This document shows positions 36,232-64,000 of a DNA stretch of 64,000 nucleotides, piece after piece. Location: positions 1-64,000 of the forward strand of contig CATOIK010000004.1 in assembly GCA_951800645.1 (NCBI GenBank). Direction: 5' to 3'. A model generated the notes under the pieces. It saw only the letters and a list, made by a program, of their open reading frames with translations, searched no databases and was not told the origin of the DNA. The position numbers and the translations under genes were made by a program. The first letter of the stretch is position 1. The number at the start of each line of letters is the position of its first letter. This stretch comes from an uncultured Eubacteriales bacterium (GTDB lineage: Bacteria > Bacillota > Clostridia > Lachnospirales > Lachnospiraceae).

Positions 36232-37992
36232 TCAACTACCGTTTCCAGGCTCCGATGTACTTTCTTCCTCCGTTTCCTCTATTCCCAGATAAGGCAGGAT
36301 ATTCTTAAAAATATCAGCAATAACCGGGGCGGCGATGGTTCCGCCGTAGTAAACTCCCTGCGGCTCGTCAATGGTGATCAGGGCAATCACCTGAGGATCG
36401 TCTGCCGGAGCAAAGCCGATAAAAGAAGAAATATACTTTTTCAGACTTCGCGGCAGTTTTTCCGAAGTAGCGGTTTTTCCGCCAATCCTGTAACCGGAAA
36501 GTTTCGCCTTGTTCCCGCTTCCCTCCGCCACCACCTGTTCCAGCACAAAACGCATCTGAGCACTAGTCTCCTCCGATAAAATCTCATCTCCCTCCGGATA
36601 GGAAAACCGGTGCACCACTGTCTTATCTCCATTCGTCACCTTCACACCAAAATGAGGGGTTACCCGGCGGCCGCCGTTAATAATGGAAGACGCAGTGGTA
36701 ATAAGTTGAATCGGCGTGATCTGAAAGGACTGGCCGAAAGAAACCGTAGCCAGCTCCACCAGACCCATATTTTCCTTCCGATGCATAATGGTAGCCGCTT
36801 CTCCCGGCAGGTCGATGCCGGTCTTTTTTCTTAAGCCGAACTGCTCAAAATACCGGTAATAATTGTCTATTCCAAGCCGCTGTCCCACATCGATAAACAC
36901 CGGATTGCAGGAGTTCATGGCTCCCTGGAGAAAGGTCTCGCCACCGTGTCCGCCTACCTTGTGACAGCGAATCTTCCGATCCTCCACCACCCGGAAACCG
37001 GGACATGAAAAGGTGTCTTCCAGTTTCACCACACCCGCCTCCAAACCGGCGGCAGCCGTAATAATCTTAAAGGTAGAGCCTGGCTCATAGGTATCGTTGA
37101 TGGCGGGATTCCGCCACATCTGGTTTAACAGCTCCTGCTTCTCCTTAGAAGAAATCCCGGCGGGAGCTTCCGTATTTAAAGTAAAGGGCTCGTTTAGGTT
37201 AAATTCCGGCACATTGGCCATAGCCATGATTTCTCCATTTTTTGGATTCATCACAATGACGGAAACCTGCCTGGCCCCTTTCCGCTCCATGGTTTCATAA
37301 GCGGCCTGCTCTGCGTACTGCTGAATATTTACGTCCAGGCTGATGTGAAGGTCGTTTCCCGAAACCGGCTCAATCCGGTCCTCAAAGGCATTGTCAATCT
37401 CCACTCCTGCTGCATCGGTCATAGTAAGAATCGTGCCGTTAATTCCTTTTAAATAAGGCTCATACTCCACCTCCAGTCCGATGATTCCCTGGTTGTCTCC
37501 GCCGGTAAAGCCAAGCACCTTAGAAGCCAGGCTGTCGTAAGGATAGTATCGTTTATAGTCCTCGTCCACCTTCACCCCGGCCAGCTTCCGGTTCCGGATC
37601 CGGTCTCCTGTTTCCTTATCTACATTGGTGCGGATAATCTCACGGGAACTGCGCTTCTCCACCTTTTTCCGCACATCTGCCTCGGCCATATCCAGTTCTT
37701 CACACAGGATGCGGATCACTTCCTCCCGGTCCTTTACCTGGTTATAGATTACCGAAATGGTGCAGACCGTCCGGTTGGTGGCAATCACCTTTCCCTTGGC
37801 GTCTACAATATTTCCCCTGGCCGCCTTGATGGTCCGCTCCCGCTGGTGAAGATCCTCCGCCATCTGACTGTAATATTCAGCCCGGTGCAGCATCAAATAG
37901 GCAAGCCGTCCTATCAGTCCCACTGCGCATAAGCTCAGCAGAAGAAACAGAACGGCTGTTTTTTCCCTGTGACGGGTATGGCTGGATCTCAT
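36232..37992 (-). CDS. Class B penicillin-binding protein, SpoVD/PBP2-like
   Basis: A 586-residue bitopic transpeptidase. The N-terminal TM (VLFLLLSLCAVGLIGRLAYLML) is followed by a PBP dimerisation domain, then a transpeptidase domain with SxxK as STFK near residue 303, SxN as SCN near 360 and KTA (GGKTATSEKL) near 500 instead of the usual KTG. No PASTA domains are present. It is the second of two tandem class B PBPs; the first is next to ftsL and is the better FtsI. This one is likely the spore cortex enzyme SpoVD. A CATATAGT at 38027-38020, resembling a sigma-E -10, lies in the 60-bp gap, but no -35 is clear. Confidence 0.85.
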   Translation of the reverse strand: MRSSHTRHREKTAVLFLLLSLCAVGLIGRLAYLMLHRAEYYSQMAEDLHQRERTIKAARGNIVDAKGKVIATNRTVCTISVIYNQVKDREEVIRILCEELDMAEADVRKKVEKRSSREIIRTNVDKETGDRIRNRKLAGVKVDEDYKRYYPYDSLASKVLGFTGGDNQGIIGLEVEYEPYLKGINGTILTMTDAAGVEIDNAFEDRIEPVSGNDLHISLDVNIQQYAEQAAYETMERKGARQVSVIVMNPKNGEIMAMANVPEFNLNEPFTLNTEAPAGISSKEKQELLNQMWRNPAINDTYEPGSTFKIITAAAGLEAGVVKLEDTFSCPGFRVVEDRKIRCHKVGGHGGETFLQGAMNSCNPVFIDVGQRLGIDNYYRYFEQFGLRKKTGIDLPGEAATIMHRKENMGLVELATVSFGQSFQITPIQLITTASSIINGGRRVTPHFGVKVTNGDKTVVHRFSYPEGDEILSEETSAQMRFVLEQVVAEGSGNKAKLSGYRIGGKTATSEKLPRSLKKYISSFIGFAPADDPQVIALITIDEPQGVYYGGTIAAPVIADIFKNILPYLGIEETEEESTSEPGNGS

Positions 37993-38052
37993 GGCCGGCT
38001 CCTGAAGATTTATTGCTATACTATATGAGCCAGGCCGGATTTTAGAACGATA

Positions 38053-40509
38053 TTACTGTACCAAAGGCGCAATGGTCTCTGGCCGTCCCGGCTGATCTCC
38101 TATGGGGCCGCCTGGCTGGGGAGGCACATAAGACGGGCCGGTTTCGTCTGCCGGCGCCGTTCCCCTGGTGGGGGCATTCTCATCTGCCTCCGTTTCCCTG
38201 GCTTTTGTAGTTTCCTTTGCTCTTGCAGTCTCAGCCGCTTTCGTGGTTTCTCTTTCCCTGGCGGTTTCCGGCTCTGTCTCCCGAACTGCCGGGGCCGTAG
38301 TCTCCGGCTCTTCATTTTCCGGAGCCGCCACCGTTTCTTCTGGATAGCTGTCCTCAGAGCCGTCCGGCAAAACGCCTGGAATGCCGGAATCCTCGCTGTA
38401 ATCTATGTACTCCTCAGTCTCATATACCTTGGTCTCCAGCTCCTGAGCAGGCTGCAGGCTGGAGTTATCGGTAATGCCCTCCTCCTGGGGAAGCTGCCCT
38501 GTCACCGCAGAATCCTCTGCTTTTGTTTCCACTGCCGGAAAAATATTCAAGTAAGGCAGAATATCCTGCATGATCTTCTGGAATACCTGGCTGGCGTAGG
38601 TGGAGTGGGCCTGTTCCTCTACAAACGGCTCGTCTACTACTACATACAGCAGAATCTGGGGATCATTGGCAGGAGCAAATCCGCAGAAGGAAAGCAAGTA
38701 CCTTCCCTGCTTACGAGGCAGCTTCTCTGCCGTACCGGTCTTTCCGCCAATCTCATAGCCTGCCACAGCAGCAGCCTTACCGGTTCCCTCTGACACCGTG
38801 CGGAACAGGGCGTTTCGGATAATACTGCTGGTAGACTCAGATACCGTCTCCCGCACCAGCTTAGGCTCTACCTTTTTCACAACAGATCCCTGCTCATTTA
38901 AGATCTGCCGCACCACATGAGGCTCATAGTAGGAACCTCCGTTGATGACAGAGCTGAAAGCCGCCGCCATCTGAACCATGCTGACATTAAATGTCTGACC
39001 AAAGGAACTGGTAGCCAGATCCACCGGCTTCATGGTCTCCTCATCATAAACCAGATTGGAGGTATCTGCCTCGCCAGGCAAATCAATGCCGGTTTTGGTT
39101 CCGAAACCAAACAGCCGCTGATACCGGGTAAAGGTAGATACGCCGGTTTTTGCTGCAATCTGCATCATGGCGTCGTTGCAGGATACCATCAAAGTCTCCG
39201 CCAGACTCTGGTTCTGATGGCCGCCCTTGGAGAAAGCAGTACACTTGATAAAATGGCCGCCTACCTCCTGATAACCATCGCAGTAGAATGTATCGTTGGG
39301 ACTGATAATGCCTTCTTCCAGGGCTGCCGCCACAGTGAAAACCTTGGCAGGAGAACCTGGCTCATAGCTGTCGCTGATGCAGTAATTTCTCCACTCCTGG
39401 TTCCATGCCACCTGAAGTCCCAGGGAATGCACCTCGTCCTCCGTATAATACTGAGGCACCTGATCTTCCTCAATGGTGGATTTATCCGTATTCCGATGCT
39501 TTCTCTTGTAATCGTCTACTGCCTCTTTTGTACCCAGGGCCCGGATTTCATCTTCTGTATAGCGGTCCGACACCTGCCGGGGATTGTTTAAATCAAAGGT
39601 ATGGTTGCTGGCCATAGCCAGAATTTCGCCATTATTGGGATTCATGGCTACCACCCCTACATTTTTAGAGCCTGGCTCGTTCATCCACTCTGCAATCCGC
39701 TTCTCCACCACATTCTGAATATTTACATCAATGGTGGACACCACTGTGTCGCCATTGACTGCAGATTTGATCACCCGTTCTAAGTTGGAATCATCGTTTA
39801 AGTAGCCGTACTCCCGTCCATTGGTTCCGATAAGAGCATCGTTGTAGGACTGTTCAATACCGCCGTTTCCGCTTCCGCCATCGCTGGTGGCAAAGCCGAT
39901 TACATTGCAGGCCAAAGAATTATAAGGGTAAACCCGCTTATATTCATCCTCAAACCAGACGCCGTACACCCGGGCTTTGGAATCCTTCTTGGCGTTGGCC
40001 TGGTTGGTCTCTGTCTTTAAGGTCTCAAAGGCCTCTTTCTGGTCGTAGCTTAGCTGTCTGGCATACCGCAGATACCGTTTTTCCGGATTGGCAGTAATCT
40101 TGGTTCGGATGTCGTTTCCGTCAAAGCCAAACACACTCACCAGGGCGGTGATCGTCGGCTCTAAGTAATTCTCTGCATCCGACATAATCTGCCGCGGGTC
40201 GATGATTAAGTTATACACTTTTTCCGTAGTAGCCAGATAGGTTCCGTTCCGGTCCACAATATCCCCCCGCCGGTAAGGCAGCACCCGGCTGTCATACTCC
40301 TGCTGGGACAAAACAATCTGATTATAGCTGTCCTGGTTGGTCTCCACAATATCGTAAAGCACATAAATTAAAGCAAACAAAGCCAGCGTAATCACGATAA
40401 CCGTGATGGCCAGCTTTTCCTGCATATATTTGGTTATAACACGCCGTTTGCCGGACTCCCGGCTCGGCTTCCGCTTTCTGTCACTGTTGGCGTTTTGGGA
40501 TGTCCTCAT
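38053..40509 (-). CDS. Class B penicillin-binding protein FtsI/PBP2B-like with long acidic tail
   Basis: An 818-residue division transpeptidase. The cytoplasmic basic N-terminus and TM (about 33-52) are followed by a PBP dimer domain. The transpeptidase domain has SxxK as SPAK near residue 385, SxN as SCN near 445 and KTG (GGKTGTAEKL) near 590. Two extra insertions rich in charged residues lie before SPAK. The last 150 residues form a Glu/Thr/Pro/Ala-rich, low-complexity extracellular tail with repeated ETTKA/ETA units in place of PASTA domains. It overlaps ftsL by 29 bp; the SD is weak, so coupling is likely. Confidence 0.9.
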   Translation of the reverse strand: MRTSQNANSDRKRKPSRESGKRRVITKYMQEKLAITVIVITLALFALIYVLYDIVETNQDSYNQIVLSQQEYDSRVLPYRRGDIVDRNGTYLATTEKVYNLIIDPRQIMSDAENYLEPTITALVSVFGFDGNDIRTKITANPEKRYLRYARQLSYDQKEAFETLKTETNQANAKKDSKARVYGVWFEDEYKRVYPYNSLACNVIGFATSDGGSGNGGIEQSYNDALIGTNGREYGYLNDDSNLERVIKSAVNGDTVVSTIDVNIQNVVEKRIAEWMNEPGSKNVGVVAMNPNNGEILAMASNHTFDLNNPRQVSDRYTEDEIRALGTKEAVDDYKRKHRNTDKSTIEEDQVPQYYTEDEVHSLGLQVAWNQEWRNYCISDSYEPGSPAKVFTVAAALEEGIISPNDTFYCDGYQEVGGHFIKCTAFSKGGHQNQSLAETLMVSCNDAMMQIAAKTGVSTFTRYQRLFGFGTKTGIDLPGEADTSNLVYDEETMKPVDLATSSFGQTFNVSMVQMAAAFSSVINGGSYYEPHVVRQILNEQGSVVKKVEPKLVRETVSESTSSIIRNALFRTVSEGTGKAAAVAGYEIGGKTGTAEKLPRKQGRYLLSFCGFAPANDPQILLYVVVDEPFVEEQAHSTYASQVFQKIMQDILPYLNIFPAVETKAEDSAVTGQLPQEEGITDNSSLQPAQELETKVYETEEYIDYSEDSGIPGVLPDGSEDSYPEETVAAPENEEPETTAPAVRETEPETARERETTKAAETARAKETTKARETEADENAPTRGTAPADETGPSYVPPQPGGPIGDQPGRPETIAPLVQ

Positions 40510-58754: not shown

Positions 58755-60692
58755 ATGTTGCGAAAAAACGGAACCACTGAACTTAGAATGGAAACTCTAT
58801 CCCTTCCATCCGCAGACCTGGGGCCAGAATCCAGTCTTCCAGATTTGCTGGGGGAAAATATTCTCCAGAACCAACTGATTTTCTGCCTGGACGAAGACGA
58901 TGAAATTTTTGAAGGCTACGGACGCCAGGAAAATGTCTATCCCTACCGCCAGTATAACACCTACGGAAAAGACTTAAAACATCGTCAGGTAAAAACCTTC
59001 GTACTGGAAAACAATTATTTAAAAGCCGTTTTTCTTCCGGAATACGGAGGACGGCTCTGGTCCCTTTTTGACAAACAGGCCGGAAAAGATTTACTTTACA
59101 AAAACGATGTCCTTCAGTTCCGCAATCTGGCAGTTAGAAACGCCTGGTTCAGCGGCGGCGTAGAGTGGAACATCGGCGTCATCGGCCACTCACCCTTTAC
59201 TACTGCTCCCCTTTATGCGGCAGCTCTGCAGGACAAGAACGGAACCCCCATTCTACGCATGTACGAGTACGAACGAATCCGGAGCGTCTATTATCAGATG
59301 GATTTCTGGCTGGAGGAAAATGACCGGGCTTTAAACTGCCGCATGCGGATTGTAAATGAACAGGAGCAGGTGGTTCCTATGTACTGGTGGAGCAACATCG
59401 CTGTGCCGGAGCACGAGGACGGACGGATTCTGGTTCCTGCAGAAAAAGCCTATACCTTCGCCGATGGAAAAGTTTTTAAAGTAAACATTCCCATAGTAGA
59501 CGGCGTAGACATTACCCGCTATCACGATATTCCCCTGTCAGTGGACTACTTCTTTGACATTGAAGATTCCAGTCCCAAATACATTGCCCATGTAGACCAG
59601 GACGGCTACGGCCTGCTTCAGCTTTCTACCAGCCGGCTGCGAAGCCGCAAACTGTTCTCCTGGGGCCACAACCGGGCGTCCAGACACTGGCAGGAATTCC
59701 TTACAAAGGACGGCGGAAATTACCTGGAAATCCAGGCTGGTCTTGCCAAAACCCAGTATGGCTGCATCCCCATGGCTCCCCACACTGCCTGGGAGTGGAT
59801 GGAGCAGTACGGCCCTATTCAGTTATCCGATGAGCAGATGGCCAGTCCTCACAAAACAGCCAGCTGCCTTCTCACCCAGCAGCTAATCCAGGAAAAGCGG
59901 ATTTCCAATCTGGAACAGAAGTTAAAAGACACCAAAGAATTAGCAAAAACAAAAGGGGAACTGCTGCAGTCCGGCAGCGGCTACGGCGCTTTCACCCCGC
60001 CCAAAAGCAGCGCAAAGCACCTGGCTTTCCGGCTGGAAGACAGCGGCTTAAAACAGTGGCATCACTTCCTTCAGACCGGTCTGCTTCACGAACCGTCCCC
60101 CTTAACGCCTCCGGACGCATTCTGGAACAGCGACGAAATATTTACCCGGCTGCAGGAAACCATAGAAAGCAAAAACAGTCACAACTGGTATGCCCATTAT
60201 CAGTTGGGCGTCTGTCTCTTTAATCGCAAAAGCCATAAAAAGGCCCGGAAAGAGTGGAAGGCGTCCTACGCCCTGCAGCCCAATCCCTGGACCTGCCACG
60301 GTCTGGGCTGCAGCTACTATGCAGACGGCAAAAAAGACAAAGCTGTTTCCTGGATTTTAAAAGGAATCAAACAGCGGAGCCAGGATGCTTCTTATCTGAA
60401 AGAATGCTTCAAGCTGCTGCATTTGTGTCAGGCGTACCCGGAAATCATCCAGTGCTACGAGACCCTTCCCGGCTCCCCGGCAAACCGGCTGACCTTCTAC
60501 TACATTTACGCCAATGCCAAGCTGGGACAGACCAGAAAAGCCTTATCCCTGCTGGAAAAAGACGGCGGCCTGGTTATGGAAGACATCCGGGAAGGGGAAG
60601 ATTCCCTGGAGCAGTTATGGACTGACCTCCACAAAGCCGTTGCCGGAACCGAGGATGAAGTTCCCTTCCCATTTGTATTTAAAGCGTTCTAG
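58755..60692 (+). CDS. DUF5107 and TPR domain protein
   Basis: A 645-residue cytoplasmic protein. Residues about 25-330 are DUF5107 (FLPEYGGRLWSLFDKQAGKDLLYKNDVLQFRN, then WFSGGVEWNIGVIGHSPFTT), a beta-sandwich resembling aldose epimerase/galactose mutarotase-like glycan-binding folds. Residues about 420-640 are TPR-type helical repeats (NWYAHYQLGVCLFNRKSHKKARKEW, then WTCHGLGCSYYADGKKDKAV). Family members are common in gut Firmicutes and Bacteroides; the substrate is unknown. ATG at 58755 has AAGGAG 6 nt upstream. The stop shares a CTAG with the stop of the convergent amidase gene. Confidence 0.85.
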   Translation: MLRKNGTTELRMETLSLPSADLGPESSLPDLLGENILQNQLIFCLDEDDEIFEGYGRQENVYPYRQYNTYGKDLKHRQVKTFVLENNYLKAVFLPEYGGRLWSLFDKQAGKDLLYKNDVLQFRNLAVRNAWFSGGVEWNIGVIGHSPFTTAPLYAAALQDKNGTPILRMYEYERIRSVYYQMDFWLEENDRALNCRMRIVNEQEQVVPMYWWSNIAVPEHEDGRILVPAEKAYTFADGKVFKVNIPIVDGVDITRYHDIPLSVDYFFDIEDSSPKYIAHVDQDGYGLLQLSTSRLRSRKLFSWGHNRASRHWQEFLTKDGGNYLEIQAGLAKTQYGCIPMAPHTAWEWMEQYGPIQLSDEQMASPHKTASCLLTQQLIQEKRISNLEQKLKDTKELAKTKGELLQSGSGYGAFTPPKSSAKHLAFRLEDSGLKQWHHFLQTGLLHEPSPLTPPDAFWNSDEIFTRLQETIESKNSHNWYAHYQLGVCLFNRKSHKKARKEWKASYALQPNPWTCHGLGCSYYADGKKDKAVSWILKGIKQRSQDASYLKECFKLLHLCQAYPEIIQCYETLPGSPANRLTFYYIYANAKLGQTRKALSLLEKDGGLVMEDIREGEDSLEQLWTDLHKAVAGTEDEVPFPFVFKAF

Positions 60693-61468
60693 TAACGGCC
60701 TGCTTCTTTTACCATTACCGTAGGATAACCGGCGGCCCGCAGCGTTTTCTCCATCCAGGCTGCATTGTCTACATCCAGGTAGGCTCCTACCCGCACCTTA
60801 TAAAGGCCGTCGTCCGCCACCATAAATGCCGGATACCCTTCCTGGGTAAGCCGCTCTACCATCCTGCTTGCAGCATCCCGGTCCCGGAATACCCCTACCT
60901 GAATCTGGTAGTATTCCGGGCCTTCTTCTTCCTGTCTGAGGGTTTCTAAAACACCGTCTGCCACTGCCTGGGCAGTCTGATAAAAGTGCTGCTCAAAAAA
61001 CTGATTATCTGCCGGATTGTCAATAAATCCTGCCTCTAAAAGCACTGCAGGCATATCCGTTTTCCGCAGCACAACAAGCCCCGGCCGTTCTACAATTCCC
61101 AAATCCTTCCATCCCATGTTCACCAGTTGCCGGTTAATATTCTCTGCCATCCGCTCCGCTTCTCCTCCGGCCTCATAAATCAGGCTCTGGATTCCAGAAG
61201 CGCTTCCCGGCACCGGCATTGCATTCCGATGAATAGACAAAAACAGATCTCCGTCCCACCGGTTTGCCATTTCCGCCTTCTCCGTAGGAGACTGGTAGAT
61301 GTCCGTTACCCTGGTGTAGGACACATCCACACCGTTATCGCTTAATATCTGCCCTACCGCCAGGGCCAGCCGCAGGGTATCGTCCTTTTCTAACCGCCCA
61401 TTATAAATGGCTCCCGGTTCCCGGCCGCCATGCCCTGCATCAATCACCACTCGTCTCATATCTGCCAT
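60689..61468 (-). CDS. CwlC-like N-acetylmuramoyl-L-alanine amidase with SPOR domain
   Basis: A 259-residue protein. An Amidase_3 domain (about 4-170) has VVIDAGHGGREPGA with the first Zn ligand, LFLSIHRNAMP with the second and VLLEAGFIDN with the catalytic Glu. A C-terminal SPOR domain (about 180-257, YYQIQVGVFRDRDAASRM) binds denuded glycan. There is no signal peptide, as in B. subtilis CwlC, the mother-cell lysis amidase. The ATG at 61468 has AGGAG 7 nt upstream, but that SD is buried in an 18-bp hairpin. A sigma-K-like promoter lies in the hairpin. This supports late sporulation expression. Confidence 0.9.
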   Translation of the reverse strand: MADMRRVVIDAGHGGREPGAIYNGRLEKDDTLRLALAVGQILSDNGVDVSYTRVTDIYQSPTEKAEMANRWDGDLFLSIHRNAMPVPGSASGIQSLIYEAGGEAERMAENINRQLVNMGWKDLGIVERPGLVVLRKTDMPAVLLEAGFIDNPADNQFFEQHFYQTAQAVADGVLETLRQEEEGPEYYQIQVGVFRDRDAASRMVERLTQEGYPAFMVADDGLYKVRVGAYLDVDNAAWMEKTLRAAGYPTVMVKEAGRY

Positions 61469-61474
61469 AAAAAA

Positions 61475-61529
61475 GCTCCTTTTCCATACTGTCTCTACTA
61501 CCTACAGTATGGAAAAAGAGCGGTAAGGT
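61475..61529 (-). promoter_or_regulatory. Terminator hairpin that hides the amidase SD, with internal sigma-K-like promoter
   Basis: Right arm 61504-61521 and left arm 61475-61492 pair over 18 bp with one G-U, loop 11 nt, followed on the minus strand by T6 and the ATG. It can end the cadA transcript and covers the AGGAG of the amidase gene (61480-61476). In the same arm, CATACTGTA (61511-61503) matches the sigma-K -10 (CATAnnnTA), with AC at 61529-61528 and a 16-bp spacer. A transcript starting near 61496 would lack the 5' arm, leaving the SD free. Confidence 0.65.
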
Positions 61530-61546
61530 TGCCTGGCCTCATTTTA

Positions 61547-63454
61547 TCAGCAGCTTCGCCGATAGCTCAGTGCCCGGATGGCGTTTAAAATCGCCAGCAC
61601 CGACACGCCTACATCTCCGAACACAGCCGCCCACATGGAAGCGTATCCCAAAGCCACCAAAATCAGCACCAGCACCTTTACACCAATAGCCAGGATGATG
61701 TTCTGGCGCACAATGCCAACCGTCTTTCTGGCAATCCGGATGGCGTCTACAATCTTGGACGGCTCATCGTCCATAATCACTACATCCGCTGCCTCTACTG
61801 CCGCGTCAGACCCAATTCCGCCCATGGCGATGCCTACATCTGCACGGGCCAGCACAGGAGCATCGTTGATGCCGTCGCCCACAAATGCCAATGTTCTGTC
61901 CGACGCTTTCTCAGCCAGAAGATGTTCCACCTGCTCCACCTTATCTGCAGGAAGCAGGTTTCCATAAACCTGGGTGATGCCGATTTTCTCGGCCACTGCT
62001 TTGCCTACTTCTTCCTTGTCTCCGGTCAGCATAACCAGGTTTCTTACTCCCTGAGCCTTTAATCCGGCCAGGGCCGACTGCACATCCTGGCGTACCGTAT
62101 CTGCAATGACGATAGCGCCCAGATAGCCGCTTTCATCCGCCAGATACAGAGTGGTTCCTGCATTCTTTATATTCTCCTCTACGGTTACATTCCGGCTTGC
62201 CATCAGCTTCTGATTGCCGATGTAAAGATCCCGCCAGGTTCCGTCAAACAGCACCTTAGCATGGACGCCGTGACCGGAGATTTCCTCTGTGTCCTGAATC
62301 CGGGCCGAATCAATTTCTTTCCCAAATGCCTCTTTCACAGACAGCGCAATGGGATGATTAGAATGATATTCTCCCAAAGCAGCCAGCTCCAGAAGGGCTT
62401 GCCGTTCTCCGTGAACCGGAAGCACCTCCGTCACCTGGAATTTTCCGGTAGTCAGGGTTCCAGTCTTGTCAAATACTACTGTTTCAAGCTGCCCCATCGC
62501 CTCCAGATAGTTGCTGCCCTTCATTAAAATGCCATACTTGGATGCCGCTCCCAGACCTCCAAAGAAGCTTAAAGGAACAGAGATAACCAGCGCACAGGGG
62601 CAGGATACCACCAGAAAGCTGCAGGCCCGGTAGACCCAGGTGCTCCAGGACGCATCCGGTAAAAAGGCCGCAGCCTCTGCAGGAATTATCATGCCAAGCA
62701 CAGGCGGCACAATGGCTAAAACCAGAGCCAGAACCACCACAATAGGCGTATAAACTCTTGCAAACCGGGTAATAAAATTCTCTGCCTTCGCCTTTCTGGA
62801 GCTGGCATTCTCCACCAGTTCCAGAATCTTTGCCACTGTAGAATCGTCAAACAGCCGGGTGGTTTCCACCTCTAAAACACCGCTTAAATTGATGGAACCG
62901 CTGACAATAGAATCCCCTTCTCCTATTTCCACCGGCATGGACTCACCGGTCAAAGCCTTGGTATCCAGACTGGATTTTCCCTTCCGAACGATACCGTCAA
63001 GAGGCACCTTTTCGCCAGGGCGGATTACAATGGTATCGCCCATATTTACCTCATAGGGATCCACCTGCCGCTCTACGCCGTCCTCCAAAAGATTGGCATA
63101 TTCCGGATTTATATCCATCAAATGGGTGATGGACCGGCGGGATTTATTGACTGCGTAGTTGTTGAACAGTTCTCCCACCTGATAAAACAGCATGACTGCA
63201 ACAGCCTCCTCTAAAGAGCCTACAATAATTGCCCCTAAAGTTGCCACCGTCATCAGGAAATTCTCATCAAACACCTGGCCGTTTTTGATGTTGCGGACTG
63301 CCTTTAAAGGAATATCATATCCTGCTGTCAGATAGGCAACCATAAAGGGAATACAGGCCAGACCGCTTCGCTTTTCCAGCGCCATTGCCGTCACAAAAAA
63401 CACTGCGCTGACAATCAGCCGTACCGTCATCCGTTTTTGTTTTTTCGTCATCAT
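61547..63454 (-). CDS. cadA: P1B-type heavy-metal (Zn/Cd/Pb) translocating ATPase
   Basis: A 635-residue P1B ATPase exporting divalent soft metals. Hallmarks are CPC in SCPCALVIS (285-287), phosphorylation Asp329 in DKTGTLTTG, HP motif in YHSNHPIALS near 365, and GDGINDAPVLARADVGIAMGG near 540. The N-terminal HMA domain is missing; instead a separate small HMA protein is encoded just upstream. The C-terminal SC ends in RRSC. SD GGAG is upstream of ATG at 63454. It is third in arsR-hma-cadA. Confidence 0.93.
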   Translation of the reverse strand: MMTKKQKRMTVRLIVSAVFFVTAMALEKRSGLACIPFMVAYLTAGYDIPLKAVRNIKNGQVFDENFLMTVATLGAIIVGSLEEAVAVMLFYQVGELFNNYAVNKSRRSITHLMDINPEYANLLEDGVERQVDPYEVNMGDTIVIRPGEKVPLDGIVRKGKSSLDTKALTGESMPVEIGEGDSIVSGSINLSGVLEVETTRLFDDSTVAKILELVENASSRKAKAENFITRFARVYTPIVVVLALVLAIVPPVLGMIIPAEAAAFLPDASWSTWVYRACSFLVVSCPCALVISVPLSFFGGLGAASKYGILMKGSNYLEAMGQLETVVFDKTGTLTTGKFQVTEVLPVHGERQALLELAALGEYHSNHPIALSVKEAFGKEIDSARIQDTEEISGHGVHAKVLFDGTWRDLYIGNQKLMASRNVTVEENIKNAGTTLYLADESGYLGAIVIADTVRQDVQSALAGLKAQGVRNLVMLTGDKEEVGKAVAEKIGITQVYGNLLPADKVEQVEHLLAEKASDRTLAFVGDGINDAPVLARADVGIAMGGIGSDAAVEAADVVIMDDEPSKIVDAIRIARKTVGIVRQNIILAIGVKVLVLILVALGYASMWAAVFGDVGVSVLAILNAIRALSYRRSC

Positions 63455-63479
63455 ATCATCTCACTCCCGGTTCATGGAC

Positions 63480-63704
63480 TTACCGCAAAACCTTAAACTC
63501 TGCCTCCGGCTCTACCTTTTCCGCAATTTTTCTGGCTTCCTCTACCAGCTCATCTGCTCGGCCGTCTTCCACTTCCATAGTCATCCGCTGAGTCATAAAG
63601 CTTAAGGAAACCTCTTTTACACCATCTAATTTTCTTACTCCCTCCTCAATTTTGGCAGCACAGTTTGCACAGCAAAGTCCTTCTAATTTGATAATCTTCT
63701 TCAT
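63480..63704 (-). CDS. Small heavy-metal-associated (HMA) protein
   Basis: A 74-residue HMA domain: GLCCANCAAKIEEGV holds the CxxC metal site, with the usual beta-alpha-beta fold (KEVSLSFMTQRMTMEVE). It probably delivers metal to or senses for the adjacent ATPase, which lacks its own N-terminal HMA domain. GGAG lies upstream of the ATG. Confidence 0.92.
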   Translation of the reverse strand: MKKIIKLEGLCCANCAAKIEEGVRKLDGVKEVSLSFMTQRMTMEVEDGRADELVEEARKIAEKVEPEAEFKVLR

Positions 63705-63732: not shown

Positions 63733-64000
63733 TTACTCCCCTATGTGTTCCATTCCCTGATTTAAAATGGTCTGAATATGGCCATCTGCCAGGCTGTAAA
63801 ATACGGTTTTCCCTTCCCGCCGGAAGTTTACCAGCCGCATCTGCTTTAAAATCCGAAGCTGATGGGAAATAGCCGACTGTCCCATCTGCAAAAGCGTGGC
63901 AATGTCGCACACGCACATTTCAGACTGACTTAATACATACAGAATCTTGATACGGGTCGAGTCCCCAAACACCTTAAAAAACTCCGACAGATCCAGAAGC
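63733..64000 (-). CDS. ArsR/SmtB family metal-sensing repressor, 5' end outside window
   Basis: A partial gene with its start beyond the right edge. The visible part reads through KVFGDSTRIKILYVLSQSE, the metal-site motif MCVCDIATLL, and a helix-turn-helix (GQSAISHQLRILKQMRLV), then VFYSLADGHIQTIL. The two Cys of the CVCD motif match the Cd/Pb/Zn site of CadC. It likely represses the operon until metal binds; the operator is outside the window. Confidence 0.92.
   Translation of the reverse strand, partial: LLDLSEFFKVFGDSTRIKILYVLSQSEMCVCDIATLLQMGQSAISHQLRILKQMRLVNFRREGKTVFYSLADGHIQTILNQGMEHIGE

Follow-up and report, generated by a model that had tools for sequence, protein, structure and literature searches.

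A 55-bp sequence ahead of a gene for a CwlC-like amidase, at 61475-61529 of the window (the whole 64,000-nt stretch of Lachnospiraceae DNA analysed here), appears to be an insulating element in which the terminator of the upstream gene, a sigma-K-type promoter and the ribosome-binding site (RBS) of the amidase are merged in one sequence; we put the probability of this reading at about two in three. RNA initiated upstream would carry both arms of a hairpin, and most polymerases would stop at the T-run that follows it; RNA reading past the T-run would carry a masked Shine-Dalgarno (SD) sequence. RNA made from the sigma-K promoter in the late mother cell would start in the loop, lack the 5' arm and form no hairpin, and would be neither terminated nor masked. 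Termination is probably the first lock and SD masking the second, and the purpose of the arrangement would be to have no lytic amidase in growing cells. The features of the region, all on the minus strand, are the following.

61475-61521, minus: 18-bp hairpin with an 11-nt loop (sequence reading, fold and covariation)
61521-61504, minus: 5' arm of the hairpin (sequence reading)
61503-61493, minus: loop of the hairpin, 11 nt (sequence reading)
61492-61475, minus: 3' arm of the hairpin (sequence reading)
61481-61476, minus: SD sequence AAGGAG, within the 3' arm (sequence reading)
61474-61469, minus: T6, both a terminator-like tail and the spacer from SD to start (sequence reading)
61468-61466, minus: amidase start codon ATG (sequence reading)
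61511-61503, minus: sigma-K-type -10, CATACTGTA (sequence reading)
61529-61528, minus: sigma-K-type -35, AC, with a spacer of 16 to the -10 (sequence reading)
60689-61468, minus: Amidase_3 + SPOR protein, 259 aa, CwlC-like, no signal peptide (ORF, Pfam, PDB relatives)
61547-63454, minus: cadA-like P-type ATPase, co-directional, upstream of the amidase (ORF, Pfam)
63480-63704, minus: heavy-metal-associated (HMA) domain protein upstream of cadA (ORF, Pfam)
63733-63999, minus: ArsR-family regulator, running past the window edge (ORF, Pfam)

Folding of 71 nt gives a single 18-bp stem of -27.4 kcal/mol, and none of 200 shuffled sequences folds as well (z = -4.57). A stable stem followed by a T-run is the anatomy of an intrinsic terminator, suggesting that transcription may terminate here in the cell; a terminator scan confined to loops of 3-8 nt did not contain this hairpin, whose loop is 11 nt, in its output. 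The T6 run also occupies most of the distance between the SD and the ATG. The -10 element of sigma-K promoters takes the form CATAnnnTA, and the sequence conforms to the pattern AC, 16-17 nt, CATAnnnTA, with 8 of the 9 bases of CATACTGTA falling in the 5' arm of the hairpin. Given the position of the -10, sigma-K RNA would be expected to start in the loop, at about 61495.

The downstream protein carries an Amidase_3 domain at residues 7-174 (Pfam, E 9.4e-45) and a SPOR domain at residues 184-250 (E 1.4e-12) of 259; since the domains span residues 7-250, a signal peptide could not be accommodated. Its PDB relatives include CwlV (1jwq) and the C-terminal domain of a sporulation-specific amidase (1x60). 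This is a CwlC-type make-up, with Amidase_3, a C-terminal SPOR domain and no signal peptide, which we take to be the architecture of CwlC itself. The genome that contains the window has an unbroken SigK match of 297.8 bits, slightly below the family cut-off of 298.65, and a SigE match above its cut-off that lies inside the window. CwlC and CwlH of B. subtilis and CD1898 and CD2184 of C. difficile are sigma-K-controlled N-acetylmuramoyl-L-alanine amidases that take part, or may take part, in lysis of the mother cell (PMC3789822); the part of that paper concerned with them does not mention a hairpin of this kind. The window amidase may act likewise.

The amidase is present in all 24 genomes of the genus, and a search of the family found a match in 208/397 genomes; among the matches listed, 28 new loci and 118 further places were taken. 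There were 176 orthologous loci with a usable BLAST hit, 168 of them with a start codon picked by rule (some wrongly, e.g. at L017 and L046), and 140 passed the filters for -10, SD and room. Within 75 nt upstream of the start, CATAnnnTA is matched at 6 of 6 positions in 115/168 orthologues and at 5 of 6 in a further 46/168, compared with about 6 and 58, respectively, in the base-shuffled control. The AC dinucleotide, which at -35 distinguishes sigma-K promoters from the ATA of sigma-E (PMC3789822), stands at spacer 16 in 50/140 and at spacer 17 in 47/140 orthologues (97/140 together). A promoter of the form AC-16/17-CATAnnnTA at this gene is thus well supported as general in the family, and its sequence pattern suggests use by sigma-K. 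An earlier note on this DNA, made from the sequence alone, had described a signal-less Amidase_3 + SPOR protein of CwlC type with a sigma-K-like promoter in the 5' arm of a hairpin; the Pfam domains and the family-wide spacing agree with this, and the coordinates, arms, SD site, -10-like motif and spacing it gave proved correct when the sequence was read again.

We asked of each scored orthologue what it would cost to open the SD. In all 140 taken together, the mean cost is 6.7 kcal/mol in RNA with the 5' arm, 1.7 kcal/mol in sigma-K RNA and 3.4 kcal/mol in shuffles that keep the -10 and the SD; 48/140 orthologues beat all 60 of their shuffles. Hairpins were called strong at a cost of ≥9 kcal/mol, a shuffle score of at most 3/60, and at least 3 SD and at least 4 -10 bases paired. 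These cut-offs were chosen after the family scores had been seen, and a looser rule makes 68/140 orthologues gate-like. A strong hairpin joining the -10 and the SD occurs in 42/140 scored Lachnospiraceae orthologues (20 in the genus and 22 outside it), in all of which, by definition of the class, the two elements lie in opposite arms; at L006 a hairpin is present below the cut-off. The hairpin is not required for the amidase gene, as 98/140 orthologues are without a strong one. With 200 nt of upstream and 60 nt of coding sequence included, the 42 strong hairpins have a median SD-opening cost of 10.6 kcal/mol in the long transcript and 1.8 kcal/mol in sigma-K RNA; the corresponding medians for the other 98 are 3.1 and 1.8 kcal/mol. 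Once ≥40 nt of coding sequence is included, the figure for the window's RNA is 5.0 kcal/mol (5.0-8.6 over contexts) compared with 3.1 kcal/mol in sigma-K RNA, since a portion of the 5' arm is able to base-pair with downstream codons, and the masking predicted for this RNA is therefore modest. The best fold in the long context still contains the complete hairpin, which cotranscriptional folding may favour.

The amidase start was scored as one of 195 gene starts picked by rule from the window, further sequence of the same contig and 120 kb of a second genome, G018. Only 4/195 starts have an SD-opening cost of ≥9 kcal/mol, the amidase ranking second, and 7/195 have a sigma-K-like -10; three of these seven are among the four costly ones, namely the amidase, a spoVD-like gene (window 37992) and the gene starting at window 20094. 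The spoVD-like gene (36232-38060) lies in a cell-wall gene cluster, matches TIGR02214 below the cut-off and carries a CATA-type -10, with its SD covered by a hairpin; its relatives mostly keep the -10 and do not keep the strong hairpin. In 24 loci of this gene, 20 of them scorable, costs range from 0.0 to 9.2 kcal/mol, with only the window's own at ≥9, the next at 8.5 and two relatives above 8; in 21 loci of the 20094 gene, 18 of them scorable, costs range from 0.0 to 10.5 kcal/mol, again with only the window's own at ≥9. As neither hairpin is conserved, we dropped the idea that such a gate is a general habit of mother-cell promoters in the genus, and since the relatives of both genes stay below 9, conservation of the hairpin is specific to the amidase. 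In G018, the SD of a gene for a 3160-aa protein lies in a very strong hairpin (L228:786-858) with an opening cost of 20.1 kcal/mol.

Strong hairpins at the amidase go together with the second half of a terminator. A T-run of ≥4 between SD and start is found in 39/42 strong cases compared with 18/98 others (Fisher p = 3e-17, uncorrected for kinship), and on phylogenetically independent pairs the association of hairpin and T-run persists, mostly at 7-8 to 0 (median p = 0.008). A separate terminator upstream of the -10 is seen in 4/42 strong cases versus 27/62 co-directional others, where terminators were called by pattern, several being weak at -7 to -9 kcal/mol, and the weak class is as called by rule. 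This trade-off suggests that genomes insulate the amidase either by an ordinary terminator or by a merged one; some seem to use neither. The upstream gene is co-directional by rule in 39/42 strong cases and 62/96 others, and in 42/42 and 67/96, respectively, after 37 divergent calls, and these only, were re-read. The rule, which takes the longest ORF, was wrong in 8 of the 37 as judged by Pfam and by eye (3 strong, 5 weak); the correction at L055 is backed by a Pfam hit that falls short of the gathering score, and L172 was left unchanged. This tie between hairpin and neighbour direction is significant by simple count and was given up when it was lost on phylogenetically independent pairs (not significant, median p = 1, at low power, with by-rule calls for weak hairpins and all 42 strong ones entered as co-directional).

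The same data could be explained by termination alone, where a short gap has forced the terminator onto the promoter and the RBS, readthrough is rare and masking is an inconsequential by-product. The T-runs and the trade-off with separate terminators are what this explanation predicts, and merged hairpins do sit in shorter gaps (median 77 nt versus 114.5 nt), so that shortage of space may account for the overlap without selection for masking; the modest masking of the window's RNA in its long context points the same way. However, other genomes place a terminator upstream of the promoter, an option that is readily at hand, and a quick protein tree calls for 21 or more changes of the hairpin state (the best tree, many branches of which are unsupported, cut-off effects included). 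On balance we regard termination alone as unlikely, though the most serious of the competing explanations.

The opposite simplification, in which readthrough RNA arrives with its SD hidden and termination is unimportant, seems improbable. It draws on the large difference in opening cost between long and sigma-K RNA in the strong cases, and on the 3/42 strong hairpins without a T-run of 4. Against it, the enrichment of T-runs and the scarcity of separate terminators point to termination, and because strong hairpins are nearly always accompanied by a T-run and seldom by a separate terminator, we favour termination together with masking over masking alone. The hairpin gate proposed in the earlier note is accordingly kept in part: the hairpin is conserved and covarying and its promoter is supported, but the comparative data favour a gate that adds termination to masking. 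Its stronger wording, by which the amidase would be translatable only from its own promoter, goes beyond what is predicted for the window's RNA (5.0 versus 3.1 kcal/mol), though the median difference over the strong cases is larger.

The hairpin and the -10 are well conserved among close relatives; their absence there was among the outcomes that the earlier note would have taken as refuting its proposal, and the proposal survived this check. A hairpin with the -10 and the SD in opposite arms is kept in 22/24 genomes of the genus (21/23 scored, and G017 by eye). The two exceptions are G015, which lacks the hairpin and a separate terminator alike, and G014, which has no hairpin and has a separate terminator (-22.5) whose T-run abuts the -10. 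Covariation in this gap, suggested earlier as a check, was assessed in a plain sequence alignment of 23 rows, from which G015 (L007) was excluded beforehand as having no such site and in which G017 is row L022 with its sequence taken from L212. In the helix, 94.4% of cells are paired and 9/17 pairs have changed on both sides in a compensatory manner, with G-U pairs present; both-side changes amount to 37 cells compared with 11.1 in shuffles, and 0/500 shuffles reach as many. When the helix is slid out of register, pairing drops to 41.5-57.8%. The kinship of the rows inflates these scores, and the helix was taken from one of the aligned rows, so the nine doubly changed pairs and the frequent G-U pairs remain the stronger evidence for the helix. 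The CATA positions are near-invariant, and the pairs just outside them vary freely along with their partners, a pattern that a promoter constraint on one arm combined with a pairing constraint on both would give. A chance fold can be set aside on the grounds of the shuffles, the conservation in the genus, the rank among gene starts and the covariation.

The covariation also bears on whether the inverted repeat, which overlaps the promoter, could be a DNA dyad bound by a mother-cell regulator instead of an RNA structure. A regulator should conserve the sequence of its site, but the arm sequences diverge between lineages while pairing is kept; the frequency of G-U pairs favours RNA, and we consider a DNA dyad very improbable. 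A riboswitch or attenuator answering a ligand of the cad operon, prompted by a terminator-like hairpin downstream of a metal operon, has next to no likelihood, as no Rfam model matches 60600-63500 at E values up to 1 and the hairpin persists behind a gene other than cadA (Lrp/AsnC in L002).

The stop codon of the cadA-like gene lies 78 nt ahead of the amidase start in the window, and elsewhere the upstream gene varies, as shown by the Lrp/AsnC gene in L002 and by the differing ORF lengths across loci. As the upstream genes are not all alike, the element belongs with the amidase rather than with cadA. The suggestion that the hairpin also terminates cadA agrees with the stem and T-run; the element has no particular tie to cadA.

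Unrelated sequence takes the place of the codons preceding HGG in 10/176 orthologues and probably in one more. Such interruptions occur in several genera (L212:1323-3990 in G017, L214-L222 and L163). Interrupting elements whose two ends could be located span about 1.4 to 11 kb, and several contain little beyond a single large serine recombinase. Of the 11 interrupted loci examined, 7 have a large serine recombinase of the L212 type; that of L212 was identified by Pfam, and the six others are 34-58% identical to it, one on the opposite strand. An N-terminal piece behind a CATA -10 was found in 5/11 (the pieces in L216 and L222 by eye); the remaining loci among the 11 gave contig ends or nothing. 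Gene-intervening elements excised in sporulation are described for sigK, spsM and gerE (PMC5595907). By analogy, the interruption at HGG may represent an insertion akin to the skin element in what is presumably a gene of the mother cell, and the elements may be excised from the amidase genes. Interruption by recombinase elements in other genomes lends indirect support to sigma-K-dependent expression and, with the SigK and SigE matches, to use in the mother cell. The sigK match itself falls in G008 into two parts of a single contig separated by about 4 kb (C20:10074-14344), as with the skin element; in G011 and G021 there are two pieces on different contigs, and in G013 and G005 only the first piece is among the matches listed.

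These observations can be drawn together, tentatively and at somewhat less than even odds, in a broader proposal: at one gene of the Lachnospiraceae, under unusual pressure against expression during growth, a merged terminator, sigma-K promoter and RBS would have been gained or lost repeatedly, readthrough would be blocked by termination plus masking, and some lineages would add a recombinase element at the catalytic HGG codons that needs excision in the mother cell. In the titles and abstract openings covered by our literature search, we found no description of the merged element or of its repeated change at a lysis amidase, and none of an amidase interrupted at HGG by such elements.

The mechanism itself is of a known kind. 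Early long RNAs of the phage T4 lysozyme gene e hide the RBS in a hairpin, and late RNAs, which are without its 5' portion, are well translated; in T4 relatives a late promoter lies in the region encoding the 5' strand of the hairpin, and the masking was measured, at 100-fold according to the review (PMC3014915). The arrangement described there matches the logic that the earlier note had ascribed to both genes: a lysis enzyme whose RBS is hidden in long transcripts, while late transcripts are free of the 5' arm. The two differ in that a phage late promoter takes the place of the sigma-K-type promoter and in that masking is measured in T4, whereas it is predicted here; the portion of the review on gene e mentions no merged terminator whose T-run doubles as the SD spacer. 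A second parallel is sigG (spoIIIG) of B. subtilis, where a hairpin of 20+ bp is proposed to block translation of spoIIG readthrough RNA and cannot fold in transcripts that start at the promoter of sigG itself (PMC5942855). Like the window amidase, sigG is a sporulation gene with a hairpin in readthrough RNA only; unlike it, sigG encodes a late forespore sigma factor, and the part of PMC5942855 describing its hairpin mentions no role in termination. The amidase is set apart from sigG by its sigma-K-type promoter and by a covarying element found in many genomes. As in gene e and sigG, the amidase's own promoter overlaps the 5' arm by its sequence, so that RNA from it would lack that arm, and the predicted fold pairs the SD in upstream-initiated RNA, though more weakly for the window's RNA in long context.

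A single 55-bp sequence could keep a self-destructive sporulation enzyme silent beside an active gene, and the element offers a counterpart, in bacterial development, of the T4 lysozyme hairpin that can be put to the test. As merged and ordinary terminators trade off against each other, comparing genomes offers a way to ask why a promoter and a terminator should come to share sequence.
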